IMG/VR virus record: IMGVR_UViG_3300025889_018060
Coordinates: 1-25,588 of that record
Reading direction: 5' to 3' (one strand)
Origin: a virus
Length of the DNA stretch: 25,588 nt
Shown here in pieces: positions 4,079-24,478 of this stretch (position 1 is its first letter; each line of letters begins with the position of its first letter). The translations under genes were made by a program, and so were the position numbers. Under the pieces are notes generated by a model. It had not been told where the DNA came from. It searched no databases and saw nothing but the letters and a program-made list of their open reading frames with translations.

Positions 4079-4910
4079 TTTAGTTACAGTAGTAGGAGAG
4101 AATACACACATTCTTCCTCATATGTTAAAACACTACCAAGATAAGGTAGATAAAATACACGTTGCAGTTTACCGACAAGGTAAAAACGATGGAATACTCG
4201 AGGAGATAGAAGAACTCGGTATTGAACCCTTTATGGTATTTACAGAAGATAAATATAACTGGAACAAAGTCACTGAAATATATAACATAGTTAAAAACAC
4301 CAAACCAAACGATTGGTGGATAGTAGCAGACGATGACGAACTACAAGTATACCCAGACGACATCGACTATATTATTAAACAATGTGAGAGATATGGATAT
4401 GACTTTGTTACCGGTGGGTTCTTAGATCGTCTAGGTAAAGATGGTACTTTTCCAAAAGTTGAGAGAGACACGGATATTCACAAAGAATTTCCTTTAGCTG
4501 GTTTCTTTAGGTACCCAATGTCTGGTGCTTGTCCTAACAAAGTCACTTTAATGAAAGGACACCAATGGGTTACTCCCGGACAGCATTATGCTGATTTTCA
4601 AGACAGTACCAATAGCTGGGGTAAAGAACATCCCAAAAGAATGCCCATAGAAGATTGCTTTGTACAAGTTCACCATTTTAAGTGGGATGAAACCTGTGTT
4701 GAAAGAATTAAAAAAGTAGCAGATAATAAACAAGAGTATTCTTTTTCAGATGAATATACGGTTATGTATAATGCTATAAAGGATTCTAATTGGAAAATAG
4801 ATATAAAGAATCCTGAATATTTAGTTGAAGAACTAAAAGAATTTTCGTATATTAATTATGAGGACTATACCAATTGGTCATCACTAACAAATAAAATAGT
4901 TTTAATATGA
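4071..4910 (+). CDS. GT2-like glycosyltransferase
   Basis: 279 residues. It begins with a Rossmann-like strand (LVTVVGENTHILPHMLKHY) as in the Glyco_tranf_2_4 group, has NDWWIVADDDELQVY with the D-D-D metal/nucleotide motif at residues 87-89, and a late VHHFKWDETCVERI segment. In this group a His-Lys-Trp element of that kind follows the catalytic site. It should transfer a sugar from a nucleotide donor, with unknown sugar and acceptor. It overlaps the methyltransferase by 8 bases and the next small gene by 4 (ATGA), so translational coupling is expected. It is a soluble protein without transmembrane helices. Confidence 0.8.
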   Translation: MPNLVTVVGENTHILPHMLKHYQDKVDKIHVAVYRQGKNDGILEEIEELGIEPFMVFTEDKYNWNKVTEIYNIVKNTKPNDWWIVADDDELQVYPDDIDYIIKQCERYGYDFVTGGFLDRLGKDGTFPKVERDTDIHKEFPLAGFFRYPMSGACPNKVTLMKGHQWVTPGQHYADFQDSTNSWGKEHPKRMPIEDCFVQVHHFKWDETCVERIKKVADNKQEYSFSDEYTVMYNAIKDSNWKIDIKNPEYLVEELKEFSYINYEDYTNWSSLTNKIVLI

Positions 4911-5083
4911 GTAAAAATATAAATTTAGATGAAAGACAAGTTAAAGCACTAGAATCTATAGCTAATTCTTTAGATGCATTAAGTTTATGGTTTGAAGAAA
5001 TAGACAAAGACGAATGGGGCGATAGAATACAATTCTATTTATCTGAATACATGAAAGTTGCAAAAGGTGAAGATACTGAGTAA
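4907..5083 (+). CDS. 58-residue helical protein of unknown function
   Basis: Short reading frame of 58 residues, starting MSKNINLDERQVKALESI and ending AKGEDTE. It starts in an ATGA overlap with the preceding gene and ends in a TAATG overlap with the following GT7 gene, which strongly suggests that it is translated. The protein is acidic, likely all-helical and has no cysteine. No domain is recognised. It may bind a neighbouring enzyme. Its place next to radical SAM genes raises the idea of a peptide substrate, but it lacks features of a leader/core precursor. Confidence 0.72.
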   Translation: MSKNINLDERQVKALESIANSLDALSLWFEEIDKDEWGDRIQFYLSEYMKVAKGEDTE

Positions 5084-6510
5084 TGCACAAACTTGGTGTT
5101 ATTGTACCTTATAGAAATAGAGAAAAACAGCTTAAACTTTTTTTAAAAGAAATAAAAGATTATCTTGATAAAAGTTTAGAGTATGAATACTGTATTATTG
5201 TAGTAGATCAAATAGATAAGAAAAAATTTAATAGAGGTAAATTATTAAATATAGGGTTTTTAGAAGCTATAAAAAGAGGTTGTGATTATGTAGTTTTTCA
5301 TGATGTAGATATGCTACCTGTAGAATGCGATTACACATATAGCGATAAACCTTTACAACTTGCTAACCATTTTATAAGCGATGGAGATTTCAACAGATCT
5401 ATACAACGTAATTATTTTGGAGGAGTAACATTATTTTCTGTAAAAGATTTTCAATTGATAAATGGATATTCTAATAGGTATAAAGGATGGGGATTTGAAG
5501 ATGACGATCTTCTATTAAGATGTAGAGAATTAAATCTAAACCTAGAAAACGAAAGCTATAGAACAGTTAACATAGATAAAAGAGCAATGTACTTTTCTGG
5601 TAAAAAATCTTTTATAAAGATAGAGAACAAGTATAGAACTGTTAGACCGTATTCCTACTTAGTAACATTTTTCCCAGATGTTATAGATTGTGACCCTAGT
5701 GAAATAACAGATGAATTTGCTATATTTGGTATACCAGGACATGATCTTAACCTCTCGTTTAACTCTTTCAGTAGGTACAAATTTGAACTTTTTTTAAAAG
5801 ATAATACCCCAGTTTCTATTACATCTGATTTTATACCTAATCTACCGTTACAGGTTTCTATTAACATTAACCCTAAGTTGAATAGAGCGCAGTACTTTAT
5901 AAACGGAAAAGAAGTAGGAACAAAATACTGGGGTAATAGAGCATTAAGGTTATATGAAGAAGAACCATACTTATATCTTGGAGTTGCAGATCCTACTAGA
6001 AATAAAAAACAAAAATACTTTAAAGGATACATAAGTAATTTTGGTATTATAAACGGTGAACTTTCCTTAGAGGAAATCAGAAAGTTATTTATGAGTGATC
6101 CAAATAAACCATTAAACGAAACAAATGATTTTATCAAAGACAGATGGTATGCATATTTTGATAGTATCAATTTTTCTAAATTAAAAAATAAATTAATAGA
6201 TACTTCCGGTGGATGTAATGATGGCGAAATACATAATGTTAGCACTAAATATTTAACAACATCAAAGGTATCTAGATTAAAATTTCCTTATCGTAGGAAG
6301 GGAGTATACAAACTATTAAAACATAGTGAAGGCGGTTATGTAGACGGTTACTGGAAAGATTGGAGTAGTAGAGAGAACCAATTAAGATACTATAGACTTA
6401 CAAACTCAGGGTCTAGTAATTACAGTAAAGATGGTCTTTCTACATGTAAGTATAGGAGTAATATAAAGATACAAGAAGATAATTATATAAAAATAGATGC
6501 TTTAACATAA
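5083..6510 (+). CDS. GT7 galactosyltransferase-type enzyme with inserted LamG-like domain
   Basis: 475 residues. The N-terminal 150 residues read like beta-1,4-galactosyltransferase (GT7): VPYRNRE (8-14), FNRGKLLNIGF (49-59), HDVDMLP with the metal aspartates D74/D76, YFGGVTLFS, NGYSNRYKGWGFEDDD ending at D142. The C-terminal 75 residues also match the end of that fold (KHSEGG with H414 in the place of the metal-binding His; NQLRYYRL; KDGLSTCKY). Between them, about residues 169-336, lies a LamG/concanavalin-like jelly roll (YFSGKKSFIKI..., AQYFINGKEVGTKYWG, YFKGYISNFGIINGELSLEE). The residue three before H414, Met in animal enzymes, is Leu411. The TAATG junctions at both ends indicate coupling. 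Family call is firm; sugar and acceptor are unknown. Confidence 0.85.
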   Translation: MHKLGVIVPYRNREKQLKLFLKEIKDYLDKSLEYEYCIIVVDQIDKKKFNRGKLLNIGFLEAIKRGCDYVVFHDVDMLPVECDYTYSDKPLQLANHFISDGDFNRSIQRNYFGGVTLFSVKDFQLINGYSNRYKGWGFEDDDLLLRCRELNLNLENESYRTVNIDKRAMYFSGKKSFIKIENKYRTVRPYSYLVTFFPDVIDCDPSEITDEFAIFGIPGHDLNLSFNSFSRYKFELFLKDNTPVSITSDFIPNLPLQVSININPKLNRAQYFINGKEVGTKYWGNRALRLYEEEPYLYLGVADPTRNKKQKYFKGYISNFGIINGELSLEEIRKLFMSDPNKPLNETNDFIKDRWYAYFDSINFSKLKNKLIDTSGGCNDGEIHNVSTKYLTTSKVSRLKFPYRRKGVYKLLKHSEGGYVDGYWKDWSSRENQLRYYRLTNSGSSNYSKDGLSTCKYRSNIKIQEDNYIKIDALT

Positions 6511-7931
6511 TGAAACATAAATTAGGAGTTTGCGTTCCATACAGAAATAGAGAAATGCATATGCATGAGTTTATACCAAAGGTTGGTAAATATCTTAAGA
6601 ACCAAGGTATAGATTTTCAAATTTACATAGTTCATCAAGTAGATGATAAATTATTCAACAGAGGTGCTACTAAAAATATAGGAGCTAAACATGCTTTTGA
6701 AGATGGTTGTGATTATGTAGTATGGCATGATATAGATATGATACCAGAAGAAGGTGGAGGTTGTGATTATTCATACCCTGCTGAAGCACCTAGACACATA
6801 GCTACTAAGATACAACAAATGGATTATCAATTAAAGTATCACGAATACTTTGGTGGTGCTGTACTGTTCACTAAAGAACAAGTTGAAGCTACTAACGGTT
6901 ATTCAAACGATTATTGGGATTGGGGTATGGAAGATGATGATTTATTTTGGAGATGTCATTTAGAAGGTATGACAAACGATAGCTACTTACCAGTAGAGCT
7001 TAATAATCAAAAGTATTTGTCTTTCAACGGACAAGATTCGTATGCTAAGATACCATTTACTCAAGATTATAAAAGACTAACCCAAAGATCACACACCATA
7101 TCAGCTCTTGTTAGATGTTACCAACAACCAGATAAAAATAAAGTGTTCTTAATCGGAGATGAGGAGAGAAAATACGTTGAGTATCCAATACTAAGACTTC
7201 CAGGTTATGATTATGGTCTTTCTTTTAATAATTCTAGAGCCTTATCTTTTACTTTTTGGAATAGTTTTAATAAACATAATTACATGTGGTTAAAAAGATA
7301 TGATAAACAATGGAGTTGGGTAACTGCAGTATTAGATGAAAAAACTCATTTAGCTCATTTATATTTAAATGGTACAGAGATTGATTCTAAAGTAGGATTA
7401 GGAAGTCCTTCACCTTTAAGATTTGACGGAAAGTTAAAAAGTTATGGTTCAAATGATTATTACCTAGGTATGTCACCATCAGAATCTGAAGAAAGTTCGT
7501 ATAAGTTTTTTAAGGGCGATATTGCTAAAGTACAATTGTGGAACAGGGCTCTTTCCTCGGAAGAAGTAGCTTCACTTCATCAAAATACTCCCAGTGATGG
7601 ATTAACTATTGATATTGATATAAATAGAGATACTAATAATCTACAAGTATTTAATGCTGATATAAAAGAAGACAATATTATAATACCAAATTCTATTATA
7701 CCTCATAGAATAGAAGGAAGAATGAGATGTCTACCACACCCCGATGAAGGTATAGTAGGAGGAAAATTTGTTAAAGGTGAGACAACAGCTAGAAACGAAA
7801 GAAGATATGTACTTGAGATGCAAAAAGGCAGTTGGGATTATAAAGGAGATGGTATTAAGCAGTTAAAGTATGAATTAGTAAAAGAAACTAAACTAACACC
7901 CTGGGCGAAGATGTTAGATATAAAATTATAA
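6510..7931 (+). CDS. GT7 galactosyltransferase-type enzyme with inserted LamG-like domain (paralogue)
   Basis: 473 residues, tandem paralogue of the preceding gene. GT7 motifs are VPYRNRE (9-15), FNRG (49-52), HDIDMIP with D74/D76, YFGGAVLFT, DYWDWGMEDDD ending at D144. The jelly-roll segment spans about residues 167-358 (YLSFNGQDSYAKIPF at its start, AHLYLNGTEIDSKVG in the middle, KVQLWNRALSSEEVASLHQ at its end). The GT7 end follows: EGRMRCLPHPDEG (Cys407, His410), NERRYVLEM, GDGIKQLKYEL, MLDIKL. It is closer to canonical GT7 than its neighbour. The two LamG-like segments differ more than the catalytic parts, so the paralogues probably recognise different glycans. TAATG overlaps occur at both ends. 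Confidence 0.87.
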   Translation: MKHKLGVCVPYRNREMHMHEFIPKVGKYLKNQGIDFQIYIVHQVDDKLFNRGATKNIGAKHAFEDGCDYVVWHDIDMIPEEGGGCDYSYPAEAPRHIATKIQQMDYQLKYHEYFGGAVLFTKEQVEATNGYSNDYWDWGMEDDDLFWRCHLEGMTNDSYLPVELNNQKYLSFNGQDSYAKIPFTQDYKRLTQRSHTISALVRCYQQPDKNKVFLIGDEERKYVEYPILRLPGYDYGLSFNNSRALSFTFWNSFNKHNYMWLKRYDKQWSWVTAVLDEKTHLAHLYLNGTEIDSKVGLGSPSPLRFDGKLKSYGSNDYYLGMSPSESEESSYKFFKGDIAKVQLWNRALSSEEVASLHQNTPSDGLTIDIDINRDTNNLQVFNADIKEDNIIIPNSIIPHRIEGRMRCLPHPDEGIVGGKFVKGETTARNERRYVLEMQKGSWDYKGDGIKQLKYELVKETKLTPWAKMLDIKL

Positions 7932-9304
7932 TGGACTATAGTAACATAAAAAGTAAATTAGACGGAGTAGGATGTGGGTTTTGTTTAGCAAAATGGAGTC
8001 AAGTAACAATACATCTAGATAAAGGATTAACTCATTCCTGTCACCACCCATCTCCACATAAGATTCCTTTAAGAGAGTTAAAAAATAACCCATCTGCTCT
8101 ACATAATACCAGGTATAAGAAAAAGAAAAGAAGAGAGATGCTTAATGGTAAAAGACCAAGAGAATGTGATTTCTGTTGGAATGTTGAAGATAATTCTAAT
8201 TCTTTCTCTGATAGAATTTTAAAATCAGCAGAACCTTGGGCATGGGATCAATTTGAAAAAATTAAATCATCTAACTGGAATAAAAACTATAATCCAAGAT
8301 ATGTTGAAGTTTCATTTTCTAATGCATGTAATTTTGCTTGTGCTTACTGTGGTCCTCAATATTCCTCTAAATGGGTAGAAGAAATAGAAAAGTATGGAGG
8401 TTATCCTACCGAACATAGTTTTAATTCTATAGACCAAATAAAAGCAAGAGATCAAATGCCTTATAAGCAATCAGAACATAATCCATATGTAGAAGCATTT
8501 TGGAAATGGTGGCCTGATCTATACCCAGATTTACATACATTTAGAATGACCGGTGGAGAACCTTTAATGTCTAAAGATGTATGGAAAGTATTAGAATATA
8601 TAAGAGATAACCCTGATATAAACCCTAACTTATCTCTTTCAATAAACACTAACTTAGGAGTACCAGATAAATTAATTGATAAACTACTGGACATAGCAGA
8701 GGACTTAACTCAAAATAATAAAGTTAGAGAATTAATTATTTTTACCTCATGTGAAGCTACTGGTAGACAGGCTGAATATAGTAGATTTGGTTTAGATTAT
8801 AATAAATTTTGGTTTAATATAGAAAAGATTTTAAAAAGACTTCCAAAAGTAACAGTAAATATTATGGCTGCTTTTAATGCACTCTCAGTCTTTACTTATT
8901 CAGACTTAATAGATAAGGTTTATGAATTTAAAAAGAAGTACCACAATGATCAAAGATATTGGGTTGAGAGCTTACAGTTAGATACCTCGTATCTTAGGTG
9001 GCCTACACATTTATCTGTAAAGATATTAGAGCCACAACACAAGAAACTTATATTAGAAGCAGCAAAAAAAGCATTATACTACGGTATGAAAGATACTCCA
9101 ATGACCACACATGGATTTTCAGACATTCAGATACAAAAAATAAAAAGAACTTATGACTATGCTATAGGTGATAGTGATTTTGATGTAGAAAAATATAGAA
9201 AAGATTTTGTTAAATTTGTAACTGAATATGATAGAAGAAGAAATACTAATTTTGTAGAAGTATTCCCAGAATTAAAAGAAATGTATGTTAAGTATAAGAA
9301 ATAA
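7931..9304 (+). CDS. Radical SAM protein 1, N-terminal twitch type, SCHH subgroup
   Basis: 457 residues. The radical SAM cluster motif CNFACAYC gives C133, C137 and C140. The SAM-binding TGGEP follows at 207-211. Before the barrel is an N-terminal twitch/SPASM-like domain with C18 (FCLAKW), C37 (SCHHP) and C79/C82 (ECDFCW), expected to hold an auxiliary iron-sulfur cluster. This N-terminal placement matches the phage-rich 'twitch domain-containing radical SAM' family. Unlike most array members, the second cysteine site is Cys-His-His and not Cys-Cys, and the strand usually reading SIDG reads TSCEA. The YSRFGLDY segment is shared with the array. It should cleave SAM to a 5'-deoxyadenosyl radical; the substrate is unknown. 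It is closest to the gene at 9860. Confidence 0.85.
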   Translation: MDYSNIKSKLDGVGCGFCLAKWSQVTIHLDKGLTHSCHHPSPHKIPLRELKNNPSALHNTRYKKKKRREMLNGKRPRECDFCWNVEDNSNSFSDRILKSAEPWAWDQFEKIKSSNWNKNYNPRYVEVSFSNACNFACAYCGPQYSSKWVEEIEKYGGYPTEHSFNSIDQIKARDQMPYKQSEHNPYVEAFWKWWPDLYPDLHTFRMTGGEPLMSKDVWKVLEYIRDNPDINPNLSLSINTNLGVPDKLIDKLLDIAEDLTQNNKVRELIIFTSCEATGRQAEYSRFGLDYNKFWFNIEKILKRLPKVTVNIMAAFNALSVFTYSDLIDKVYEFKKKYHNDQRYWVESLQLDTSYLRWPTHLSVKILEPQHKKLILEAAKKALYYGMKDTPMTTHGFSDIQIQKIKRTYDYAIGDSDFDVEKYRKDFVKFVTEYDRRRNTNFVEVFPELKEMYVKYKK

Positions 9305-9860
9305 AGAACCTTGGGCATTTTGGCCAACTAGAGTTAGTCCATCTTTTTTTAAGTTTGCAGGTAATAAAGCAATTAGCGGTAAATACAACTTTAAATTCGA
9401 ATTAGATTTTACTATTCGTAAAACATATGAAGATAAAAGTACCATTTTCTCAATCTTACCTATATATACTTCTCTAAATTATTACAATGAACATATGAGT
9501 AATATTGATGTTCATACAGAGGATGGAATGGCTTGGAGTGAAATAAAGGATACGATATTTATAAATAAGAGACATAAAGTTACTATCGAAAACATAGTAG
9601 GTAGTAATTTTATAGCTTATATAGATGGAAAGGAAGTGATAAAAGCAAAGAATTTTAGTCATGTTGATGATCCGCAGTTACTATTTGGAGCAGGGAACTT
9701 TCCATGGCATAATGAAAATCATCATTACTGTGATTTAGATTTACATGAATTTAAAATGTATCATGATAATAATCTTATATCACATCATTTATTTGAGAAG
9801 TTTATATATGAAAAATCTTTTGACTTAACAGATAATTGTAATTTAATACATAAAGTATAA
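9285..9860 (+). CDS. Stand-alone LamG/concanavalin-like jelly-roll protein
   Basis: 191 residues with the pattern of a LamG/laminin-G-like carbohydrate-binding fold: alternating beta strands, KYNFKFELDFTIRKT, then KRHKVTIENI, FIAYIDGKEVIKAKNF (a ligand-edge hairpin typical of the fold), then HYCDLDLHEFKMYHDNNLIS. It resembles the domains inserted in the two GT7 enzymes upstream. It has no signal peptide or catalytic motif. It overlaps radical SAM gene 1 by 20 bases and joins radical SAM gene 2 with TAATG. A role as a glycan-binding subunit that presents substrate to an array enzyme is inference. Confidence 0.65.
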   Translation: MLSIRNKEPWAFWPTRVSPSFFKFAGNKAISGKYNFKFELDFTIRKTYEDKSTIFSILPIYTSLNYYNEHMSNIDVHTEDGMAWSEIKDTIFINKRHKVTIENIVGSNFIAYIDGKEVIKAKNFSHVDDPQLLFGAGNFPWHNENHHYCDLDLHEFKMYHDNNLISHHLFEKFIYEKSFDLTDNCNLIHKV

Positions 9861-11452
9861 TGGGAGTTTTTAGTAAAAAACCAAATGAATCATTTCAAGA
9901 GTATAGAGACAGAGCAATAAATAGCTTATCACCTTCGTTTTGTGGAGCAAAATGGTATAATGCTACAATATGGTTAGGTAATGGTCAAACAACTTCATGT
10001 CATCACCCTCCTGCACACAAGATACCTTTAGAGGAATTAAAGTTTAGTTATAAAGCACTACATAATACAAAATACAAGAAGGCTGTACGTAAGCAGATGA
10101 TGGAAGGTATTAGACCTAAAGAGTGTGAGTACTGTTGGAAGATAGAAGACTTAGGTAAAGATAAAGTATCCGATAGAGTTTATAAATCAGTGATATATAC
10201 TGATGAAGAACTAAAAGAAGCTAAAGAGACAATGGGTTACACTGAGGATGTGGATCTTAAAACATTGGAGATAGCATTTGACCCTAACTGTAATTTTGCT
10301 TGTTCCTACTGTAACTCTTCATTCAGTACTACTTGGCAAAAAGACATTAAAGTTAACGGACCTTATCAAAATTTAGTATCAGACGGAGCCTCAGCATTCC
10401 AACATGATGGTGCACATGCTATGCCCTACGGTAGAAAAAATGAAGGTAATCCTTACATAGAAGCATTTTGGAAATGGTGGGAAGCAGAATTACAATACAG
10501 TTTAAGAGAGTTAAGAGTAACAGGAGGAGAACCTTCTATGTCTCCAGACTTTTGGAAGCTTATGGACTGGTGGAAAAAGAACCCAGATTGTAAAGTACCA
10601 TTTGCAGTTAATTCTAACTTGGGTCAAAAGAAAGAATTATTAGATGCTCTTATTGAATCATCACATAGTTTTAAAGATTTTTCAATTTACACATCTAACG
10701 AAGCAGTCGGACTTCAAGCTGAGTATATAAGGTTTGGATTAGATTGGGACTTATGGTTAAAGAATATGTATAGGGTAAATGAGGAAGGTAATATGAAATC
10801 TGTTAATGTTATGATGACCATTAATAGCTTGTGTCTATTTTCTATAACTGAATTTATGGACGAGATGTTAAAATTAAAAGCTAAATTTGGTCATAGTGCA
10901 GCAGTTATGTCTTTTAATATTTTACGTTTTCCTTCCTTTCAATCTATAGTTACACTACCTAACCATATAAGATTAGAAAGAGCACAAGCTATGCAAGATT
11001 GGTTAGATAAAAATTGGAATGACGGTAAAAACGGGTTTATGGATATAGAACGAGATGGTCTTTTAAGACTTATAGAATATACTAAATCTGTAGAAACAGG
11101 ACATGAATTTACATCTTCTCTAGAAACTAGAGTTAGAGACTTTAGATCTTTTTATTCGCAATACGACAAAAGAAGAGGTAAAGATTTTCACGCAGCATTT
11201 CCCATGTTAACTGACTGGTTTAACGGTATACCAAAGACAGAAATTAAACAATTAACAGGTGTTATAAATGGAGACGATGCTAAATCTAATAAATATGTTA
11301 AAGGAGTCTTAGAACAAGCTGAAAAAGAAGGATGGATACTTAAACCTCAATGGGCTAACCCAGGAGCACAAGATTATATAGAACCAGATGACCAGCAGCA
11401 AGATGATATGATCGATTTAATTAAAAATTTAGATACTAAAAATCAGCAATAA
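9860..11452 (+). CDS. Radical SAM protein 2, N-terminal twitch type, SCHH subgroup, with C-terminal extension
   Basis: 530 residues, the longest member. The cluster motif CNFACSYC gives C144, C148 and C151; TGGEP is at 221-225. The N-terminal twitch set is C28 (FCGAKW), C47 (SCHHP) and C89/C92 (ECEYCW). It shares with radical SAM 1 the block PYGRKNEGNPYIEAFWKWW and the TSNEAVGLQAEYIRFGLDW segment, so the two are paralogues. The last 70 residues form an acidic, Gln/Asp-rich tail (DDQQQDDMIDLIKNLD) absent from the others and possibly a docking segment. The start is in a TAATG overlap. Catalysis by SAM radical chemistry is well supported; the substrate is unknown. Confidence 0.85.
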   Translation: MGVFSKKPNESFQEYRDRAINSLSPSFCGAKWYNATIWLGNGQTTSCHHPPAHKIPLEELKFSYKALHNTKYKKAVRKQMMEGIRPKECEYCWKIEDLGKDKVSDRVYKSVIYTDEELKEAKETMGYTEDVDLKTLEIAFDPNCNFACSYCNSSFSTTWQKDIKVNGPYQNLVSDGASAFQHDGAHAMPYGRKNEGNPYIEAFWKWWEAELQYSLRELRVTGGEPSMSPDFWKLMDWWKKNPDCKVPFAVNSNLGQKKELLDALIESSHSFKDFSIYTSNEAVGLQAEYIRFGLDWDLWLKNMYRVNEEGNMKSVNVMMTINSLCLFSITEFMDEMLKLKAKFGHSAAVMSFNILRFPSFQSIVTLPNHIRLERAQAMQDWLDKNWNDGKNGFMDIERDGLLRLIEYTKSVETGHEFTSSLETRVRDFRSFYSQYDKRRGKDFHAAFPMLTDWFNGIPKTEIKQLTGVINGDDAKSNKYVKGVLEQAEKEGWILKPQWANPGAQDYIEPDDQQQDDMIDLIKNLDTKNQQ

Positions 11453-11456
11453 TAAC

Positions 11457-11461
11457 AGGAG
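11457..11461 (+). promoter_or_regulatory. Ribosome binding site AGGAG before radical SAM 3
   Basis: AGGAG sits 3 bases before the ATG at 11465, in a 12-base gap. It is one of very few convincing Shine-Dalgarno sequences in the window; nearly all other cargo genes depend on stop/start overlap. Confidence 0.5.
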
Positions 11462-11464
11462 TAC

Positions 11465-12808
11465 ATGAGTATAAAAAAACCATCTGAAGGTAATAAAACG
11501 TTCTGTATGGCTCCATGGTCCCATACCTACTTATCACCACAAAGTGAGAGAAGAATGTGCTGTGCCTCTAGAGAAAAAGCAGAATGGGCTACACAGTATC
11601 TAGATGCAGATAAAGCTGAAAAAGATTCTTCTTATAACCCAGGTACTTTAAAAGATCATTGGAACTCAGAATACATGAAAGGTATTCGAAGAGATCTTAT
11701 GGCAGGTAAAGAAATACCACAGTGTCAAGTATGTAACAACAAGTTACTTAACGTCTCTATCTATAGAGATTATTTTAATAAGACACTATTTCCAAATAAA
11801 ATAGATGAAGCGTTTGAGAAGACTAGAGACGATGGTTATACTGAAATGAAACCTATATCATTTGATTATAGAATAAAAAATCTTTGTAACTTTAAATGTA
11901 GAATGTGTGGTGATCAATTATCATCATCATGGGAGGCAGAAAGAAGAGCGATGGGTGATTACGATCAAGAAGAAAACACAGACTTTTGGGCACAAAAAAA
12001 GAATAAACCAGCTATAGAGACCTTCCAAAGAGAAGTAGCAGAAAAAGAATTATGGGAAGCGGTAAAAAATGGCACTATAGAAGAAATATACTGGGTAGGA
12101 GGAGAGCCTTTAATGTGGGAAATACATTGGGAGATTATGCAATATCTTATCGACCATGATCTTGCTAAAAACGTATGGATAAGGTATAATACTAATTTCT
12201 CTAGGACTACTTATAAACATTGGGACTTGAGAAATATGTTACCTCATTTCAAAATGGTACAAATATGTGCTTCTATAGACGGAACAGGTGATATAGTTGA
12301 ATACGTGAGACACGGTATTAAATGGGATCAATGGATAAGTAACTTTAAAGATTTTATGTTTTTAAAAGAACAGTATGGTGAGTACGGTATAGCTTTTGAT
12401 CTTACAATTACTACACCTGGTTTATTTAGTTTAAAAGATTTGTTTGATTTATCTGTCGAATTAGATGTAAATACTTTAATTAAGACTACATTTGCTTTTG
12501 ATAGCAGTATAATTATGTGCCCACAGGTTTTACCTAGAGATTTGTACAATGAAGTAATAGATGATATAATTGATTACATCAAACCTACCGTAGAACAAAA
12601 ACCTAAATATCAATATTGGGTTACTTGTCTAGAGGACTTAAAAAATAGAGAAGTGTTCTCTGAAAAATATGAGGATTGGAAAGAAGGATTAGAGAAAGGT
12701 AAATTTAATCTAAAAAGAGTTGATAAATGGCGTAATAATGAAGAACTATTGAACAGAATATTTCTTAAATATAATAAAAAAGTGTACGACTGGTGGAACA
12801 AAAAGTAA
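11465..12808 (+). CDS. Radical SAM protein 3, N-terminal twitch type, CC subgroup
   Basis: 447 residues. The N-terminal twitch cysteines are C14 (TFCMAPW), C32/C33 (MCCAS) and C87/C90 (QCQVCN). The radical SAM motif CNFKCRMC gives C141, C145 and C148. VGGEP at 211-215 binds SAM, and ICASIDGTGDIVEYVRHG is the next barrel strand. The FC-x-x-PW and paired CC pattern is the standard SPASM/twitch pattern, unlike the two SCHH members before it. It has an AGGAG ribosome binding site and a 12-base gap, so it may begin a separately initiated translation unit. It overlaps the next gene by 16 bases. The substrate is unknown. Confidence 0.85.
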   Translation: MSIKKPSEGNKTFCMAPWSHTYLSPQSERRMCCASREKAEWATQYLDADKAEKDSSYNPGTLKDHWNSEYMKGIRRDLMAGKEIPQCQVCNNKLLNVSIYRDYFNKTLFPNKIDEAFEKTRDDGYTEMKPISFDYRIKNLCNFKCRMCGDQLSSSWEAERRAMGDYDQEENTDFWAQKKNKPAIETFQREVAEKELWEAVKNGTIEEIYWVGGEPLMWEIHWEIMQYLIDHDLAKNVWIRYNTNFSRTTYKHWDLRNMLPHFKMVQICASIDGTGDIVEYVRHGIKWDQWISNFKDFMFLKEQYGEYGIAFDLTITTPGLFSLKDLFDLSVELDVNTLIKTTFAFDSSIIMCPQVLPRDLYNEVIDDIIDYIKPTVEQKPKYQYWVTCLEDLKNREVFSEKYEDWKEGLEKGKFNLKRVDKWRNNEELLNRIFLKYNKKVYDWWNKK

Positions 12809-14004
12809 AGACATCTAAATCATTTTGTGTACTACCTTGGATACATTTAGCAACTCATCCAATTGGTACAGTTACTCCCTGTTGTGTGACTGAAATGAAA
12901 AACGGAGCATCAACTGCAGTTAAAAAAGGAACAGATAATATAGGTTTATTTTTATCAAAAGATAGTCTAGAAGATATAGCTAATTCTGAACGTTTTAATC
13001 ATGTACGTAAACAAATGATGGACGGAGAATACCCAGAAGTATGTAAAAACTGTTACCTAACAGAAAAAGACGGCTCTGAATCTAAAAGGACTAGGGATAC
13101 AAAAAGGTTTGAAAAATATATAGAGGAATGTTTTAAAAATACTAACCCAGATGGTAGTTTAAAGAATGTTGAATATAATTATGTTGAATTAAGATTAGGT
13201 ACTGTTTGTAATTTAAAATGTACTACCTGTAATCCTTTTTCTTCTAATAGATGGCACCAGGATATACATGCCTTTGCTAACACTGAGTTTGAAGCACTTT
13301 ACTATAGAAACGACATTAAAACAGAATGGTATAGAGATTTTGATTTTTATGATGAACTATACAGTAGATGTAGTAATTTACAAGAGATATGGATAAATGG
13401 TGGAGAGCCTACGATGATAAAAGAACATGGATATTTTTTAGAAAAATTTATAAAGGATGGAACTAGTAAAAATATAGACTTACACTACAGTCTCAACTGT
13501 ACTCAATTTCCTGATAAGTTTATAGAGATATGGAAAAATTTTAGAAATATTAGAATACATTTATCTATAGATGACTTAGAGAAGAGAAACTACTACGTAA
13601 GATTCCCATCAGACTGGGATCAAATTATGACATCTTTTAATAAAATTTTAAAGTATAGAGATGTTTTTAATCTAGAGGTATGTCAAACAATCAGTGCTTT
13701 AAATGTATTTAATATAGATAATTTTAAAAAATTTACTGTAGACAATGAACTACATGTAGCTCACAATTATGTTCATTATCCAAATCACTTACAGGTAAAT
13801 CTTATACCTGATAATATGAAAAAAGAAATTTTAGATAATATTAAATTTCTTACAAAAAAAGAAACTAATACACTATTAGGAGAATTAAATAGGCCGTTAG
13901 AGAATCAAGATAGTGCGAGATTCTACAGGTTTATTAATATGTTAGATAAACACCGTAAAGTTAAGATAGGGAATTATTTACCAGAATGGAAACAATATTT
14001 TTAA
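12793..14004 (+). CDS. Radical SAM protein 4, N-terminal twitch type
   Basis: 403 residues from a GTG start (reading MEQKVKTSKSFCVLPW) that overlaps the previous gene by 16 bases. No ATG exists before the FC-x-x-PW motif, so GTG is favoured. Twitch cysteines are C12, C30/C31 (PCCVT) and C84/C87 (VCKNCY). The radical SAM motif CNLKCTTC gives C139, C143 and C146. The SAM motif is NGGEP at 202-206. SIDDLEKRNYYVRF is the shared downstream element, with SIDD in place of SIDG. The next gene begins after a single base. Class is firm; substrate is not known. Confidence 0.85.
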   Translation: MEQKVKTSKSFCVLPWIHLATHPIGTVTPCCVTEMKNGASTAVKKGTDNIGLFLSKDSLEDIANSERFNHVRKQMMDGEYPEVCKNCYLTEKDGSESKRTRDTKRFEKYIEECFKNTNPDGSLKNVEYNYVELRLGTVCNLKCTTCNPFSSNRWHQDIHAFANTEFEALYYRNDIKTEWYRDFDFYDELYSRCSNLQEIWINGGEPTMIKEHGYFLEKFIKDGTSKNIDLHYSLNCTQFPDKFIEIWKNFRNIRIHLSIDDLEKRNYYVRFPSDWDQIMTSFNKILKYRDVFNLEVCQTISALNVFNIDNFKKFTVDNELHVAHNYVHYPNHLQVNLIPDNMKKEILDNIKFLTKKETNTLLGELNRPLENQDSARFYRFINMLDKHRKVKIGNYLPEWKQYF

Positions 14005-14005
14005 T

Positions 14006-15205
14006 ATGAAATATGCATGTCCTTTACCGTGGGTTGGTTTTTCTAATGATCCTGATGGGTCAGTAAGACCATGCTGTATATATAAAGAAAATATTAAAGA
14101 TGAAAACGATAATATTCTCTATATACAAAACACTCCTGTAAAAGATATTTTCCATGGTGATTACATGAAAAAGCTTAGAGAAGAATTTAAAAGGGGAGAA
14201 AAGCCTTCTGGATGCTCTACTTGCTGGACTGACGAAGAAAACGGCTATACAAGTAAAAGACTTAAATATATAGATATCCATAAGAATATTCTAGATTTTG
14301 ATCACCTACCAGAGTATCCTTTAGACTATCAACTAATTTTAACCAATGCCTGTAATCTAAAATGCAGATCCTGTAGCTCTTCCCATAGTACTAGTTGGTT
14401 AACAGAGGTTAATAAAATGACCGAAGAAGATAAAAAAGAACTACATCAGAGAGATTATAAAATGCCTTATGGCCAATCTGGTAATCAAGAGAGCGTATTT
14501 TTAAAAGATATAGATACTTGGGGTGCTAATGTTAAAAGAATGGAAGTTGTAGGAGGCGAACCATTTTACACTAATGTTTGGGAGAAAGTATGGGATAAAC
14601 TTATAGAAAAAGGTTATTCCAAAAATATAGATTTAACTATGTCTACAAACGGTACTTTCTTTAAAGAAAAATTATTACATAGGCTGGCTAAAAATTTTAA
14701 AACTGTCGGTATAGCATTAAGTATTGACGGAATTGGAGATATGTTTGAATATCTGAGAAAAAATGGAAACTGGAGCGAAGTAAAAGATAATCTTAAAAAT
14801 TTCTATTCTTTCTATACAAATTCAAAATACAGTAACCTGTACTTTCAGTATACATTTACTATATCGTGGATAAATGCAGTAACTTTACCAGAAATGACTA
14901 CATGGGTCAGAAAAAATACTCCTAAATTTAAAATTTGGTATAATTTAGTTCATGCACCTAATTTTATGAGCTTATGGAATACCCCATTAGGACTTAAAAA
15001 AGAAATTACCGAAAAACTTTCTACCTACGATTGGCAAAATAATAAAAAGGATATAGAGGCATTAATAAAATTTATGAATAGTAGGAATATAGAGGATAAA
15101 ATGTTCGAAAAGACTATTAATAAGCTTCTGCTTTTAGATCAATATAGGAATGATAACAGTTTAGAGCTTTTAAAAAAGTATTATTTGAATATAGACAGTA
15201 TTTAA
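14006..15205 (+). CDS. Radical SAM protein 5, N-terminal twitch type
   Basis: 399 residues. It begins almost directly with the twitch motif: ACPLPW (C5), RPCCIY (C23/C24), GCSTCW (C70/C73). The radical SAM motif CNLKCRSC gives C116, C120 and C123. VGGEP is at 182-186. LSIDGIGDMFEYLRKNGNW is the downstream barrel element common to the array. It ends in a TAATG overlap with the next gene. It lacks an extra C-terminal domain, so the single auxiliary cluster is expected to be at the N terminus. Confidence 0.85.
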   Translation: MKYACPLPWVGFSNDPDGSVRPCCIYKENIKDENDNILYIQNTPVKDIFHGDYMKKLREEFKRGEKPSGCSTCWTDEENGYTSKRLKYIDIHKNILDFDHLPEYPLDYQLILTNACNLKCRSCSSSHSTSWLTEVNKMTEEDKKELHQRDYKMPYGQSGNQESVFLKDIDTWGANVKRMEVVGGEPFYTNVWEKVWDKLIEKGYSKNIDLTMSTNGTFFKEKLLHRLAKNFKTVGIALSIDGIGDMFEYLRKNGNWSEVKDNLKNFYSFYTNSKYSNLYFQYTFTISWINAVTLPEMTTWVRKNTPKFKIWYNLVHAPNFMSLWNTPLGLKKEITEKLSTYDWQNNKKDIEALIKFMNSRNIEDKMFEKTINKLLLLDQYRNDNSLELLKKYYLNIDSI

Positions 15206-16224
15206 TGGATTTAAAAAACTACATATGCACAAACCCATTTAACTATACAGAACTTACTGTAAATAGTCAACATATGTGTTGTAATGAGTGGATGTCATTA
15301 GATATAAAGACTAAAGGTGATTTAAATGATAACTGGAATAGTGATAAAGCAAACTCTGCTAGACAGTCAATGTTAGACGGCTCTTTTAAATATTGCTCAA
15401 CAGATAAATGCCCACATTTAAACAATGTAGTTCATAATGATAGACCATCCGGACCAGTAAAATTTAAAACTAATAAACTAGTACAAGAACTTACTAAACA
15501 AAAGTTACCTAATTCAATGAAAGTTGTGTTTGATAGTGCATGCAATTTAGCATGTCCGTCATGTAGAACTAATTTTATCAGAAACGAAGACTATATAACT
15601 AATAAATCCAGACATATTTTAGCAGATGTCGAAAAATCATACGGCAACTCATTAGAGTTTATATCAATGTCTGGTTATGGTGATCCGTTTTATAGTGAAG
15701 CACTGTTTGAATGGTTAGTTAATTTTGATAGTACAAAATATCCTAAAATGGATAAAATACATATACATACAAACGGTATGTTGTGGAATGAATATAATTG
15801 GAATAAAATTAAATTAGCTCAACCCTATATAAAATCAGCAGAAATTTCTATTGATGCAGCAAATGCTGAAACTTATCATAAAGTTAGAAAAGGAGGTAAG
15901 TGGGATCTTTTGATGAAAAATCTTAAATTTATAAATACATTAACACAAGTACACAGCATAATTCTATCATTTGTTATTCAAAAGGATAACTACAAGGAAA
16001 TAGTTTCTTTTTATAGATTAATGAAAGACATATTTAAAAATCAAAAAAATATTATAATTCAGTACTATAAAATATTAAACTGGGGTGTATTATCAGAAGA
16101 AGAATTTAAGGATAAGGCAATTTGGGATAAGAATCATCCTCATTTTAATGAATTAGTAGATCAAATTAAAATATTAGACTCATTTAACGATAATAAAGTA
16201 ATTCATAGTTTACATGGCATTTGA
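15205..16224 (+). CDS. Radical SAM protein 6, short divergent member
   Basis: 339 residues, the shortest of the seven. Twitch cysteines are C8 (ICTNPF, with Phe in place of the usual Trp), C25/C26 (MCCNE) and C64/C69 (YCSTDKC, a wider CX4C spacing). The radical SAM motif CNLACPSC gives C113, C117 and C120. The SAM motif reads SGYGDPF (G157, G159, D160, P161) in place of GGEP, a variant known in other SPASM-type enzymes. ISIDAANAETYHKVRKGGKW follows. The reduced size and altered motifs suggest a different substrate from its neighbours. It overlaps the next gene by 11 bases. Confidence 0.82.
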   Translation: MDLKNYICTNPFNYTELTVNSQHMCCNEWMSLDIKTKGDLNDNWNSDKANSARQSMLDGSFKYCSTDKCPHLNNVVHNDRPSGPVKFKTNKLVQELTKQKLPNSMKVVFDSACNLACPSCRTNFIRNEDYITNKSRHILADVEKSYGNSLEFISMSGYGDPFYSEALFEWLVNFDSTKYPKMDKIHIHTNGMLWNEYNWNKIKLAQPYIKSAEISIDAANAETYHKVRKGGKWDLLMKNLKFINTLTQVHSIILSFVIQKDNYKEIVSFYRLMKDIFKNQKNIIIQYYKILNWGVLSEEEFKDKAIWDKNHPHFNELVDQIKILDSFNDNKVIHSLHGI

Positions 16225-17491
16225 TAAAAAAATATTAAAAGAATCTAAAACTTTTTGTTTAGCACCCTGGCTATCAATACATACCTGGCCTGATGGCAAT
16301 ACTTTTCCTTGTTGTATCTGGGACTCAGGACAGCCTGTAGGTAATATAAATGATCAAAGCCTGGAACAGATATGGAATAATGAAAAAATGAAACAAACCA
16401 GAACCGCAATGGTTAATGGGGAAAAAATTAGTGCCTGTGAAAGGTGTTACCATTTAGAAGAAACTGGAGATAGTTCCTATAGAAAAAGAATTAATAAAGA
16501 CCACTGGAACAAATTACACTATATAGACAGTACAGATACTAACGGTACTTTAAATGTTATGAATTTACACCTATGGGATATTCGTATATCTAATTTCTGT
16601 AACTTTAAATGTAGAAGTTGCGGTTTAGGTTTAAGTTCATCTTGGTATCCTGATGCTATAGCATTAGGGCAAACTCCTAAAAAAGCTTTAATCAATATAA
16701 ATGATAAAGCATCTTTTATGGATATTTTAGAACCTCATTACAAGTGTGTAGACGAAATATATTTTGCAGGAGGTGAACCTTTAATTATGCCAGAACATTA
16801 TCAAATTCTGGATAGACTTATAGAGTTAGGAAGGACCGATGTAAATATAAGATACTCTACAAATTTTTCTAAACTGACTTTTAAAGGTAAACATATTTTT
16901 GACTATTGGAAACAATTTCCTAATCTAGAACTGTACATAAGTATTGACGGAGTAGGTAAGATTGGGGAATATGTAAGAAAAGGATATGATGATAAAATTT
17001 TTAACCAAAACGTTATTGATTATAAAAACTCAGGTATTAAACATACAGATTATGCTTATGCTATTACTTATGGTACTTTAAATTATTTACATTTATTTGA
17101 TATGGTGTTAGACTTTATAGAAAGAGATTTTGTAGATAAAATACTAGATAAGGAAACAAGAACTTTTTATTTTAGTCCAATAAGTAGACCTTCCTATTAT
17201 GATACAGTATTTCTACCTGACCAGTTTAAAGAGAAATTTAGAAAAAGGCTAGAAGGATTTGAACTTGAACTTAAAAAAACCGGTATTAGTGATCGTTTTA
17301 TAAGGATTATAATAAGTAAATTAAACACCGTTTATAAAAGAAGCATAAGTAAAGATTTTAACTACAAAGAAATGTCTAAATGCAAAAATATTACAGATAA
17401 ATTAGATAAAATTAGAAAAGAAAAATTTTTAGACGTATTTGGGTATGAAACCTCTGAATTTATCCAACCTAGTAATAAAAATATTATATAA
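16214..17491 (+). CDS. Radical SAM protein 7, N-terminal twitch type
   Basis: 425 residues. It is the member closest to a textbook SPASM/twitch pattern: TFCLAPW (C15), WPDGNTFPCCIW (C33/C34), ISACERCY (C75/C78), with GNINDQSLEQIWNNEKM between them, as in SPASM domains. The radical SAM motif CNFKCRSC gives C129, C133 and C136. AGGEP is at 185-189. YISIDGVGKIGEYVRKGYD is the downstream barrel element. It is the last of the seven radical SAM genes and joins the next gene (a putative glycosyltransferase) by TAATG. Confidence 0.86.
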   Translation: MAFDKKILKESKTFCLAPWLSIHTWPDGNTFPCCIWDSGQPVGNINDQSLEQIWNNEKMKQTRTAMVNGEKISACERCYHLEETGDSSYRKRINKDHWNKLHYIDSTDTNGTLNVMNLHLWDIRISNFCNFKCRSCGLGLSSSWYPDAIALGQTPKKALININDKASFMDILEPHYKCVDEIYFAGGEPLIMPEHYQILDRLIELGRTDVNIRYSTNFSKLTFKGKHIFDYWKQFPNLELYISIDGVGKIGEYVRKGYDDKIFNQNVIDYKNSGIKHTDYAYAITYGTLNYLHLFDMVLDFIERDFVDKILDKETRTFYFSPISRPSYYDTVFLPDQFKEKFRKRLEGFELELKKTGISDRFIRIIISKLNTVYKRSISKDFNYKEMSKCKNITDKLDKIRKEKFLDVFGYETSEFIQPSNKNII

Positions 17492-18771
17492 TGATTAGAT
17501 TAGTTTATGATGAGTTAGGTATTGCTAATGCCCGTGCATGTGAAGGGGTATTCAATAATGATACTTTAGAAGGAGTATTTAATACTTTTCCTCAAAGTTG
17601 TGTAAGACAGACATTAAAATCAACCAGTAAACATATTAACAGCTATTATCCTGTATCGCCATCTACTGCAGAAATAGCTTTTGGGAAAACCGGTCCTGGA
17701 TTTATAGAATTCATTAGCTCACTAGCTTTAACTCGGCTACAAGATCCTCAAGACCAATTAAAACTGTTAATTAATTTCCCATGGGAGGGATTTGATATAA
17801 AGTTTAAAGAATATCTTGTTATTGACTATATAAATTTATTAATTAGTAAATATAATATAAATGGTGACAAAATCTTTTTTTTATTTGGTGACGTAAATAT
17901 AAAAAAAACTTTAGAATTAACCTCTACAAAATTTAAGATCCCTGATAGTAATATTTTAGGAGTAAATCTTTTTGAGGGAGTAGCTTTTGCTGATTTTAAC
18001 AGTCTAAACTTTTTACCTTCTTTAGAAGTTAATTTAAACAGGAAAAAAAGATTTTTATGTAAAAACGGAGTAGCTCGTCCTTGTAGAATGTACCTTGCAG
18101 GAGCTTTTTATAATAAAAATCTTTTAGATAAATTTTATTTTTCTTGGCTAAACCATGCTAAATGGGATTATGATGAACATATAGAATATGCTTTTTCTAA
18201 ATACAATTATGGAAAAATAAATAAAGAATTTCTAAACTCATTTTTAGAATTTATAAAAGATGAACCTTATATTCTAGATATAACCAGCGATGAAGCTACA
18301 GATAGAAAGAACCAGGTATATAACAGTAGTAGGCTATATAGAGATAGTTATGCTTCTCTTGTGACAGAGACTGTAGTAGATGATTACAACAAGGGTGTTT
18401 TATTTCTAAGTGAAAAAACATATAAGCCTATCTACAACTTACATCCTTTTCTAAACGTTGGCGGTCCTGGAATATTAAAATTATTAAAAGATGACGGTTA
18501 TTCTACCTTTCCTGAATTATTTGATGAAAGTTATGATGAAATTAAAGATTGTAGTACCAGGATACAGAAAATTTTAACTGAAGTAGAAAAATTCTGTAAA
18601 ATAGACAGTAAAGTTTTAGATGATATCTACTCTAGTAGTACATTTCAAGATAAACTAATACATAATTTTACTATCTTTAAAGATAGAAGAAGTAAAGAAG
18701 AGATAAAAAAGATTATGAAGTGGCTATGGGGTAAAGAAGATGACGCTTTAGTAGCTCTAATGAATTTTTAA
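17491..18771 (+). CDS. Putative glycosyltransferase with SEKTYKP motif
   Basis: 426 residues. The C-terminal half carries FLSEKTYKPIYNLHPFLNVG (S307-P313), then LLKDDGYSTFPELFDESYDE. The E-K-x-x-x-P...P-F-x-x-x-G pattern resembles the donor-binding region of GT-B enzymes such as GT10 fucosyltransferases and exostosin-like proteins. A mid-protein NRKKRFLCKN segment followed by LLDKFYFSWL is shared with the next gene (CLNRKRHSHR...). I cannot assign a CAZy family. The two adjacent genes are paralogues that differ in the N-terminal domain. The neighbouring dehydrogenase and SGNH protein support a sugar role. No membrane segments are seen. Confidence 0.55.
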   Translation: MIRLVYDELGIANARACEGVFNNDTLEGVFNTFPQSCVRQTLKSTSKHINSYYPVSPSTAEIAFGKTGPGFIEFISSLALTRLQDPQDQLKLLINFPWEGFDIKFKEYLVIDYINLLISKYNINGDKIFFLFGDVNIKKTLELTSTKFKIPDSNILGVNLFEGVAFADFNSLNFLPSLEVNLNRKKRFLCKNGVARPCRMYLAGAFYNKNLLDKFYFSWLNHAKWDYDEHIEYAFSKYNYGKINKEFLNSFLEFIKDEPYILDITSDEATDRKNQVYNSSRLYRDSYASLVTETVVDDYNKGVLFLSEKTYKPIYNLHPFLNVGGPGILKLLKDDGYSTFPELFDESYDEIKDCSTRIQKILTEVEKFCKIDSKVLDDIYSSSTFQDKLIHNFTIFKDRRSKEEIKKIMKWLWGKEDDALVALMNF

Positions 18772-18794
18772 ATACATCCAACACAGTTTTAAAA

Positions 18795-19799
18795 ATGACT
18801 AACTTAATTTACCATAGTTCTATATACAGAGATTTTAGTAAAGAAAATAGCATTATAAGTAGTTTAGAAAGTAAGTATTTTGATGATCTTATTGCTTCTT
18901 GCTCTTCCACAGATTTGTTTGTAAATTCAATATGGGGTGAAGTAGATAGTGATTTAATAGAACTTGTCAAACAAAAGCCACCCCGGGCTATCGTATATAG
19001 CGGTATGGATTGGGAAAATACTGTATGTAGGAAAGAATTCAACGATTATATAAATAGAAATATAAAAAATACAGTACATATAGGTAACAGTGACGGTAAA
19101 GGTTATTTTAGCTTTTGGTTATTTTTTATAGAAAAATATTTTGCATCCTATCCTATTGAGAAAGTTGAATTTAGTAATCCTAAAAACGTTTATATGTGTC
19201 TTAATAGAAAAAGACATTCACATAGAGTTACATTAGTAGATAGACTAAAAGAAGAAGGTTTACTCGAATATGGATTAGTGTCTCTCGGTGGGGACTCAGA
19301 AAAATATGTATCACAGTTAAACTTAAATGTGGATGTAAAAGAAGTAGATGGTAATAAAGCCACAGATTATAGACCAGGTGATATACCTAACGATATAAGT
19401 TCTATCGGAGATTTAACCAATTGGAACAGCACCCTTATCAATGTAGTTACAGAAACTACTACCCACACTCATACATTTATTAGTGAAAAAACTTGGAAGC
19501 CTATAGTAGGTCTAAGACCTTTCATGATAGTTGGTGATTATAAAATTTATTCTTACCTTAAGGAGTACGGTATAGATACCTTTGATGATATATTCGGAAC
19601 AGGTTATGAACATCCTTGGGTACATAAAAGGATTGAATGGGTGATTAGTAACTTAAAAAAGTATTCTAATAGTAATTTAATAGATCTATATAAAGAGCTG
19701 TATCCTAGATTAGTTAAAAATAAATTACAACTACAGGAAATTTTTAAAATAAACAGTTCTAAGTATCAAAAAGTAATAGATTTTATAAAAAAAAATTAA
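18795..19799 (+). CDS. Putative glycosyltransferase with SEKTWKP motif (paralogue)
   Basis: 334 residues. It contains NVYMCLNRKRHSHRVTLVDR (about residues 134-153) and FISEKTWKPIVGLRPFMIVG (S230-P236), then YLKEYGIDTFDDIFGTGYEH. These match the pattern of the preceding gene, so the two are related, with a shorter N-terminal half here. The likely fold is GT-B with a nucleotide-sugar donor; assignment is by motif resemblance only. It follows a 23-base gap. The gene after it starts 4 bases past its stop. Confidence 0.55.
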   Translation: MTNLIYHSSIYRDFSKENSIISSLESKYFDDLIASCSSTDLFVNSIWGEVDSDLIELVKQKPPRAIVYSGMDWENTVCRKEFNDYINRNIKNTVHIGNSDGKGYFSFWLFFIEKYFASYPIEKVEFSNPKNVYMCLNRKRHSHRVTLVDRLKEEGLLEYGLVSLGGDSEKYVSQLNLNVDVKEVDGNKATDYRPGDIPNDISSIGDLTNWNSTLINVVTETTTHTHTFISEKTWKPIVGLRPFMIVGDYKIYSYLKEYGIDTFDDIFGTGYEHPWVHKRIEWVISNLKKYSNSNLIDLYKELYPRLVKNKLQLQEIFKINSSKYQKVIDFIKKN

Positions 19800-19803
19800 T
19801 TTA

Positions 19804-23992: not shown

Positions 23993-24478
23993 ATGGCAGT
24001 ATTAGATCCAAATGAAATAATGTTTAGAGCTTTCGAGCCGAAAGTTCAGAATAGATTTGTCCTTTACGTAGATGGAATTCCATCATTCTTAGTAAAGAAC
24101 GTATCAGCACCAGAATTCACAGATGAGGTGATTAAATTAGACCACATCAACTCTTATAGAAAAATTAGAGGAAAAAGAGAATGGGCTGATATAACAATGA
24201 CTTTATATGATCCAATCACACCTTCAGGTGCACAAGCAGTGATGGAGTGGGCAAGATTATCTTATGAGTCAGTAACAGGTAGAGCTGGATACTCAGATTT
24301 CTACAAAAAGGATCTAACATTAAACATATTAGGACCAGTTGGTGATATCGTTGGAGAATGGGTCATCAAAGGAGGATTCGTAACTACAGCAGATTTCGGA
24401 GACTATGATTGGTCTAATAGTGAAGTAGTCGATGTATCGTTAACTGTAGCGATGGACTACTGTATCTTAAATTACTAA
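23993..24478 (+). CDS. Tail tube protein (gp19-like)
   Basis: 161 residues, almost the same size as T4 gp19. It reads FRAFEPKVQNRFVLYVDGIP, then FLVKNVSAPEF, HINSYRKIRGKREWADITMT and LYDPITPSG, which is the standard T4-like tail tube pattern. The end (DFGDYDWSNSEVVDVSLTVA) also fits the family. It forms the inner tube under the sheath. The gene lies directly after the sheath as expected and is followed by a strong terminator. Confidence 0.95.
   Translation: MAVLDPNEIMFRAFEPKVQNRFVLYVDGIPSFLVKNVSAPEFTDEVIKLDHINSYRKIRGKREWADITMTLYDPITPSGAQAVMEWARLSYESVTGRAGYSDFYKKDLTLNILGPVGDIVGEWVIKGGFVTTADFGDYDWSNSEVVDVSLTVAMDYCILNY

Follow-up and report, generated by a model that had tools for sequence, protein, structure and literature searches.

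Why would a T4-like phage carry seven radical S-adenosylmethionine (SAM) genes side by side among its tail genes? Radical SAM enzymes are oxygen-sensitive and costly for a phage; nonetheless, aquatic T4-like phages keep up to 21 copies of one such family, the N-twitch proteins, per record; the order of the copies is largely fixed, and selection acts on them. The question is addressed here for a 25,588-base virus record (IMGVR_UViG_3300025889_018060, positions 1-25,588; hereafter the window, meaning this whole stretch), which belongs to an aquatic or marine T4-like phage and in which every gene lies on one strand. Seven co-directional radical SAM open reading frames (ORFs), termed R1 to R7 (457, 530, 447, 403, 399, 339 and 425 amino acids (aa)), occupy positions 7931-17491 with an ORF at 9285-9860 as their sole interruption, just as an original prediction, made from the DNA letters, had described them in this tail region. 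Tentatively, and with somewhat less than even confidence, we read the run as an ordered pathway that tailors a glycoconjugate or glycopeptide, comprising six N-twitch enzymes and one divergent relative co-transcribed with glycosyltransferases at a tail-fibre/host-recognition island.

Family membership was assessed with the NCBIfam model NF033640 (N_Twi_rSAM), whose curated cut-off is 170 bits over the whole protein. R1-R5 and R7 pass this cut-off over their full length at 280-356 bits, while R6, at 60 bits, falls below it and forms a tree clade of its own, and is thus regarded as a relative and not as a member. The expected N-terminal twitch family is therefore present in six of the copies, whereas R6 departs from it with a variant cysteine set. 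All seven proteins carry the predicted intact CX3CX2C motif and match PF04055, which places them in the radical SAM superfamily, although the PF04055 score of R3 is slightly under the cut-off (28.7 versus 29.5 bits). The twitch domain corresponds to the first four cysteines of the SPASM motif, CX9-15GX4C-gap-CX2C (PMC6231123). This motif is exact in R1, R2, R4, R5, and R7, where it lies ahead of the radical SAM motif; R3 is without the glycine, which is present in 11 of the 33 R3 class members, and R6 shows an altered, CX4C variant. Each enzyme is predicted to hold one auxiliary iron-sulfur cluster in its N-terminal twitch domain. An AlphaFold model of R7 (predicted local distance difference test score (pLDDT) 93.4) found no full-length match in the PDB, with a query-normalised TM-score of at most 0.36 among the 50 best matches listed; GDGT-MAS, SuiB, BlsE, viperin, and DesII all matched only partially and were dismissed as functional matches by fold.

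Pairwise identity among the seven copies in the window is 16-36%. A tree built from 285 non-redundant phage-locus proteins sorts the copies into classes around R1-R7, with support values of 95 for R1, 97 for R2, 88 for R3, 87 for R4, 71 for R5, and 83 for R6, and without tree support for the R7 group. The R1 class includes 53 proteins from 53 loci, i.e., one per locus, and the R2 and R3 classes nearly follow this pattern. Recent tandem duplication is ruled out by the low identity together with class-wise orthology across loci, and R1-R7 are ancient paralogues instead of recent duplicates. When gene order was counted in 108 records, R1 stood ahead of R2 in 84 of 84 ordered pairs and R3 ahead of R4 in 54 of 61, while the order of R5-R7 varied; the loci were found through R2, R4, R5, R6, and R7, mostly R2, which biases the counts of R2 but not the presence or position of R1 beside it. 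The ratio of nonsynonymous to synonymous rates (dN/dS) of all seven against near relatives, 0.04-0.17, indicates purifying selection, and CX3CX2C is kept in 555 of 558 long homologues, the exceptions being two full-scoring proteins cut at a locus end and one weak match on the opposite strand. Recent decay of the copies is ruled out by these last two observations. Divergence into classes, largely fixed order, intact motifs, and purifying selection together argue for separate retained functions, and because the copies are ancient, ordered, and selected, a multistep or multi-site pathway is likelier than a dosage effect. The copies are non-redundant, which agrees with the multistep pathway or parallel enzymes that had been envisaged. 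Homologues scattered at random, or copies mostly inactive in relatives, had been named as observations that would speak against that proposal; the placement is non-random, and almost all copies retain their motif.

High copy number in itself is not new, given that all 40 related phage records sampled carry N-twitch copies, 1-21 each and at least seven in 17 of them, and that the passages on iron-sulfur proteins in an earlier study count 12 radical SAM genes in one T4-like environmental genome, TARA_ERS488813_N000010 (Nishimura 2017, PMC5332604). The original supposition that marine phages were known to carry only single copies thus has to be given up. Among cultured phages, tblastn found no R2, and searches with R3 and R7 returned only distant Vibrio phage proteins of ~22% identity; the R7 search also gave a fragment from a marine single cell. 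In Vibrio phage K566 (255 kb; locus L226), distant N-twitch-like radical SAM genes lie near ribonucleotide reductase and nicotinamide phosphoribosyltransferase genes. Besides, the R1-R2 loci of two IMG/VR 'viral' contigs (L083, L086) stand near CHASE2-like and other cell-like genes and may be chromosomal fragments, and a metagenome-assembled genome labelled Rhodobacteraceae (L177), with phage-type genes upstream of R1, probably stems from the binning of a phage contig with bacterial sequence.

Our main evidence for glycoconjugate chemistry is that unrelated glycosyltransferases were independently recruited beside R1-R2. GT7-LamG genes occupy positions -1/-2 of R1 in 27 of the 67 distinct R1 loci, and a second, unrelated module, consisting of a gene pair of one family plus another conserved family at -1, is found upstream in 29 of the 67. 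For the paired family, a profile search returned glycogenin (E about 1e-8), and it is accordingly described as glycogenin-like GT8, while the -1 family (A6) had no PDB profile match, which is why we do not class it as a glycosyltransferase by homology. Both modules are directly preceded by genes for fibres or other structural proteins. In addition, one distant island encodes a carbamoyltransferase and a weak sulfotransferase match. The sugar link that the original prediction drew from this neighbourhood is thus borne out by two unrelated glycosyltransferase sets directly upstream of R1, but it is not universal, as one bacterial array (L149/L223) is flanked by rpmA/obg and some bacterial R1/R2-type genes adjoin PqqD-like peptide-binding proteins, albeit within polysaccharide-type clusters.

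After the tail fibre gene, the island runs through DUF6734, a methyltransferase, GT2, two GT7 genes with Laminin_G_3, R1, the 191-aa ORF, and R2-R7, and continues with proteins A and B, the SGNH-like protein, and the UDP-glucose dehydrogenase-like protein before the gp18 sheath and gp19 tube are reached (Table 1). From 5083 to 22139 neighbouring genes overlap or lie at most 23 bases apart, so this stretch is probably one transcription unit; along the R1-R7 run the predicted coupling by overlaps is seen at junctions of -1, -20, -1, -16, -1, and -11 bases, and two further junctions are gapped, by 12 and by 1. Late promoters (TATAAATA) were discarded as a signal, with 9 in the window versus 8.1 expected, i.e., none above chance. 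At the same site, the closest cultured relative by sheath, Flavobacterium phage immuto, encodes nothing but a tail fibre, a handful of small genes, and a lysozyme, and because of this different, small content we regard the island as an optional insert at a variable locus. The window therefore shows what defines a host-recognition island, namely a block of variable content that separates the tail fibre from the core tail genes and is missing or different in relatives. As the sheath of the window is nearest to that of immuto among phage records, the host is uncertain.

Table 1. Features of the window, with positions counted from its first base
Feature	Position	Strand	Remarks
Tail fibre protein with S74 peptidase/chaperone domain	32..1486	+	PF13884 59 bits; PHROG tail fibre and baseplate families; upstream flank
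DUF6734 protein	2515..3372	+	PF20508 35.1 bits, cut-off 27; family upstream of R1 in 13 loci
Methyltransf_24 methyltransferase	3359..4078	+	PF13578 42.3 bits; same module as DUF6734 and GT2
GT2-type glycosyltransferase	4071..4910	+	PF13704 25.0 bits, below cut-off 27.5; conserved family upstream of R1 in 22 loci
GT7-type glycosyltransferase, GT7 N and C domains	5083..6510	+	PF13733 77 bits, PF02709 59 bits
GT7-type glycosyltransferase fused to Laminin_G_3	6510..7931	+	PF02709 70 bits, PF13385 55 bits; one-base overlap with R1
R1, N-twitch radical SAM, 457 aa	7931..9304	+	NF033640 337.9 bits; first of putative core pair; N-terminal SCHHP...HKI variant
191-aa ORF between R1 and R2	9285..9860	+	LamG-like only in the original prediction
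R2, N-twitch radical SAM, 530 aa	9860..11452	+	NF033640 313.8 bits; second of putative core pair
R3, N-twitch radical SAM, 447 aa	11465..12808	+	NF033640 315 bits; dN/dS 0.04
R4, N-twitch radical SAM, 403 aa, GTG start	12793..14004	+	NF033640 338 bits; SPASM PF13186 39.2 bits
R5, N-twitch radical SAM, 399 aa	14006..15205	+	NF033640 279.7 bits
R6, divergent radical SAM, 339 aa	15205..16224	+	NF033640 60 bits; PF04055 34.4 bits; N-terminal Cys C8, C25-C26, C64-X4-C69
R7, N-twitch radical SAM, 425 aa	16214..17491	+	NF033640 356 bits; nearest family centre; widespread cellular type
Protein A, predicted GT-B-fold glycosyltransferase-like	17491..18771	+	No profile match; AlphaFold pLDDT 79
Protein B, distant relative of protein A	18795..19799	+	A and B relatives share joint alignment A3
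SGNH-hydrolase-like protein	19804..20700	+	FGCSFT motif by eye only
UDP-glucose/GDP-mannose dehydrogenase-like	20713..21891	+	phrog_9148 332 bits, PF00984 63 bits
Tail sheath, gp18-like	22253..23956	+	65% identity to Flavobacterium phage immuto sheath; downstream flank
Tail tube, gp19-like	23993..24478	+	Gene order as sheath/tube of phage immuto

The ORF interrupting the run had been labelled LamG-like, but no significant profile match was found for it, including none to LamG; Laminin_G_3 is instead found in the upstream GT7 proteins, the first of which shows just a weak C-terminal match below the cut-off (PF13385, 17.8 bits). Most GT7-type phage loci have a homologue of the interrupting ORF (25-66% identity) between R1 and R2, and the dN/dS of this ORF is 0.10. 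A small uncalled ORF of ~57 aa was further noticed at 4907-5080, between GT2 and the first GT7, and a short ORF sits in the same place in many related loci. Downstream of R7, the best Foldseek matches of the protein A model in the PDB are nearly all GT-B proteins (SenB, alpha1,3-fucosyltransferase, GlgM; best E 2e-3), from which we assign it a GT-B fold with moderate confidence. An 888-aa fusion in another locus (L103, 11900-14563) joins a B-like part to a following A-like part, suggesting that proteins A and B act together; like it, L097:7568-10216 encodes a ~880-aa protein matching protein B. The SGNH-like protein had no Pfam or PHROG match.

The family is also found on bacterial chromosomes. 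A genome scan with R7 alone as query gave no matches, while a scan with the family alignment succeeded and detected N-twitch proteins in Bacteroidota, Bdellovibrionota, Elusimicrobia, and others. One Elusimicrobia genome (G054) has at least 50 family matches, many fused to tetratricopeptide (TPR) repeats; in two of its loci (L220, L221) tandem N-twitch radical SAM proteins each stand behind long TPR repeats. Orthologues of R1, R2, R3, and R4 lie on Bdellovibrionota chromosomes, those of R2 at about 50% identity, and an R1/R2-type protein is present at E <= 1e-80 in 45 of 192 Bdellovibrionota genomes sampled. The Bacteriovoracaceae array L149/L223 mentioned above reads R2-R3-R4-R7-R4-R1-R2 beside the housekeeping genes rpmA and obg. 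The split between R1 and R2 predates the divergence of phage and bacterial copies, and bacterial copies are scattered among phage copies.

In Bdellovibrionota, R1/R2-type genes stand beside PqqD genes at a frequency well above chance; PqqD in its best-studied case binds the peptide that serves a radical SAM enzyme as precursor (PMC10906245). Across 29 Bdellovibrionota genomes with an R1/R2-type protein and 31 PqqD genes in total, an R1/R2-type gene is no more than 500 bp away from 7 of the 31 (0.03 expected) and no more than 10 kb away from 10 of them (0.31 expected). These clusters also contain ABC-2 exporters, a DegT aminotransferase, a NodU-type carbamoyltransferase, and a GT4-type enzyme, the families having been profile-tested in L231, L232, L233, L235, and for one L149 protein, and assigned by eye elsewhere. 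A recurrent bacterial cluster (L233, L235-L241) combines an R1/R2-type gene with PqqD, ~310-350-aa proteins of unknown family, and GT-B-like and carbamoyltransferase-like proteins; no description of it was found in the literature searched. In one Bdellovibrionota locus (L232:1-4030), lantibiotic dehydratase- and LanC-like genes lie ~4 kb upstream of an R2 orthologue. No PqqA-like precursor was identified. PqqD as a partner carrying a RiPP (ribosomally synthesized and post-translationally modified peptide) recognition element (RRE) was dropped for phages, as it is absent from 31 phage records.

In the glycoconjugate-tailoring pathway that we tentatively propose, each enzyme would apply 5'-deoxyadenosyl radical chemistry to successive or different positions of one glycoconjugate, with R1 and R2 jointly performing a core step and R3-R7 contributing optional tailoring steps. 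The likeliest target would be a glycan or glycopeptide that is produced late in infection and carried by the tail fibre or baseplate of the phage itself; gene position points to the virion tail fibre, and the fibre protein of the window is a candidate substrate, whereas a host surface glycan would be the main alternative target. Array genes overlap or abut, which leaves hardly any room for a precursor gene within the array itself, and the only small ORF, at ~4907-5080, lies ahead of the GT7 genes; a large virion protein could serve as substrate instead of a precursor peptide. Several points weigh against this proposal. No substrate, precursor peptide, or glycan was identified, and sequence cannot separate a virion from a host target. 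The L149/L223 array and the L243 pair are without a recognised glycosyltransferase alongside, so local glycosyltransfer is not obligatory. Furthermore, the seven PqqD pairs, from seven bacterial genomes, come from one phylum and are not independent, and PqqD was not found in the 31 phage records. We further speculate, at rather long odds, that phages and Bdellovibrio-like bacteria share an undescribed pathway in which R1-R2 would install an unusual linkage on protein, e.g., a carbon-linked sugar or a cross-linked glycopeptide, R3-R7 would provide position-specific tailoring, and the phage product would decorate tail fibres.

Other explanations have to be weighed against the same observations. 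The island might remodel the host surface, changing O-antigen or capsule sugars during infection and thereby blocking superinfection or freeing released phage from recognition. UDP-glucose dehydrogenase, encoded in the same islands, and carbamoyltransferase, encoded in one, are typical of surface polysaccharide pathways; bacterial R2 clusters include Wzm/Wzt-like ABC exporters, and such a role has been argued for the glycosyltransferases that comparable islands of pelagimyophages encode (Zaragoza-Solas 2020, PMC7029224). However, R1/R2 are kept at about 40-50% identity over very different phages and bacteria, a poor fit to host-specific glycans, and the genes adjoin late structural genes, so we consider this reading unlikely, if still deserving of serious thought. 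Somewhat more doubtful is a sugar-free, RiPP-like modification in which residues of a tail fibre or a secreted peptide would be cross-linked, epimerised, or oxidised, and the glycosyltransferases would be bystanders of a hypervariable island. The PqqD genes adjoining R1/R2-type genes in seven bacterial genomes, the LanB/LanC-like pair near R2, the TPR fusions in Elusimicrobia, profile similarity to peptide maturases such as SkfB, and the L149 and L243 arrays without glycosyltransferases are all in line with it. What tells against it is that the tested phage records have no PqqD and the array hardly any space for a precursor gene, that glycosyltransferase coupling arose with two unrelated modules, and that the bacterial PqqD clusters carry sugar genes too.

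Hypermodification of phage DNA or of the nucleotide pool by the glycosyltransferases and radical SAM enzymes is very improbable. DNA bases are among the targets on which phage glycosyltransferases can act (PMC12619734 and references therein), and the radical SAM cores show a weak similarity to viperin by profile and by fold, but these genes sit in the late tail region, the window yielded no gene for base modification, and the same arrays occur on bacterial chromosomes. The sight of several same-family genes side by side might finally suggest recent tandem duplications of little function, decayed or redundant; the divergence, class orthology, intact motifs, and dN/dS values described above refute this, and we give it almost no credence. 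If tail fibres or glycans are indeed modified by the proposed glycoconjugate pathway, phage surface chemistry would gain a new layer from which new enzymes could be drawn, and the bacterial counterparts with PqqD offer an experimentally accessible route to the substrate.

The family name (NCBIfam) and multi-copy phages (published) are already known, and similar ordered sets are common in aquatic phages; for the ordered classes, the double glycosyltransferase coupling, and the PqqD link, no description was found in the open-licence papers searched. Six window proteins belong to the NF033640 family, whose model carries no function, order, or pathway, unlike the order and classes described here. 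TARA_ERS488813_N000010 is likewise a marine T4-like phage genome with a large number of radical SAM genes, but in the passages on iron-sulfur proteins the count is given without arrangement, subfamily, or glycosyltransferase coupling (PMC5332604). With PqqD/PqqE peptide maturation, the bacterial R1/R2-type genes share an adjoining PqqD-family gene; an RRE domain or a PqqD partner would mark a RiPP maturase, and the phages do not show this mark, PqqD being absent from the 31 records tested. BtrN, SkfB, PqqE, and anSME share the auxiliary-cluster domain and cysteine motif with N-twitch proteins, and the N-twitch N-terminus matches the BtrN twitch domain (4m7t) with an E value of 1.5e-6. In known SPASM/twitch enzymes this domain is C-terminal (PMC6231123), whereas in R1-R5 and R7 it precedes the radical SAM core and is thus permuted. 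The nearest parallel in setting is the pelagimyophage host recognition cluster, which likewise holds tail fibres, glycosyltransferases, and radical SAM cassettes inside structural genes, and which lies between VrlC and gp14 (Zaragoza-Solas 2020, PMC7029224), while the island of the window lies between the tail fibre and gp18.

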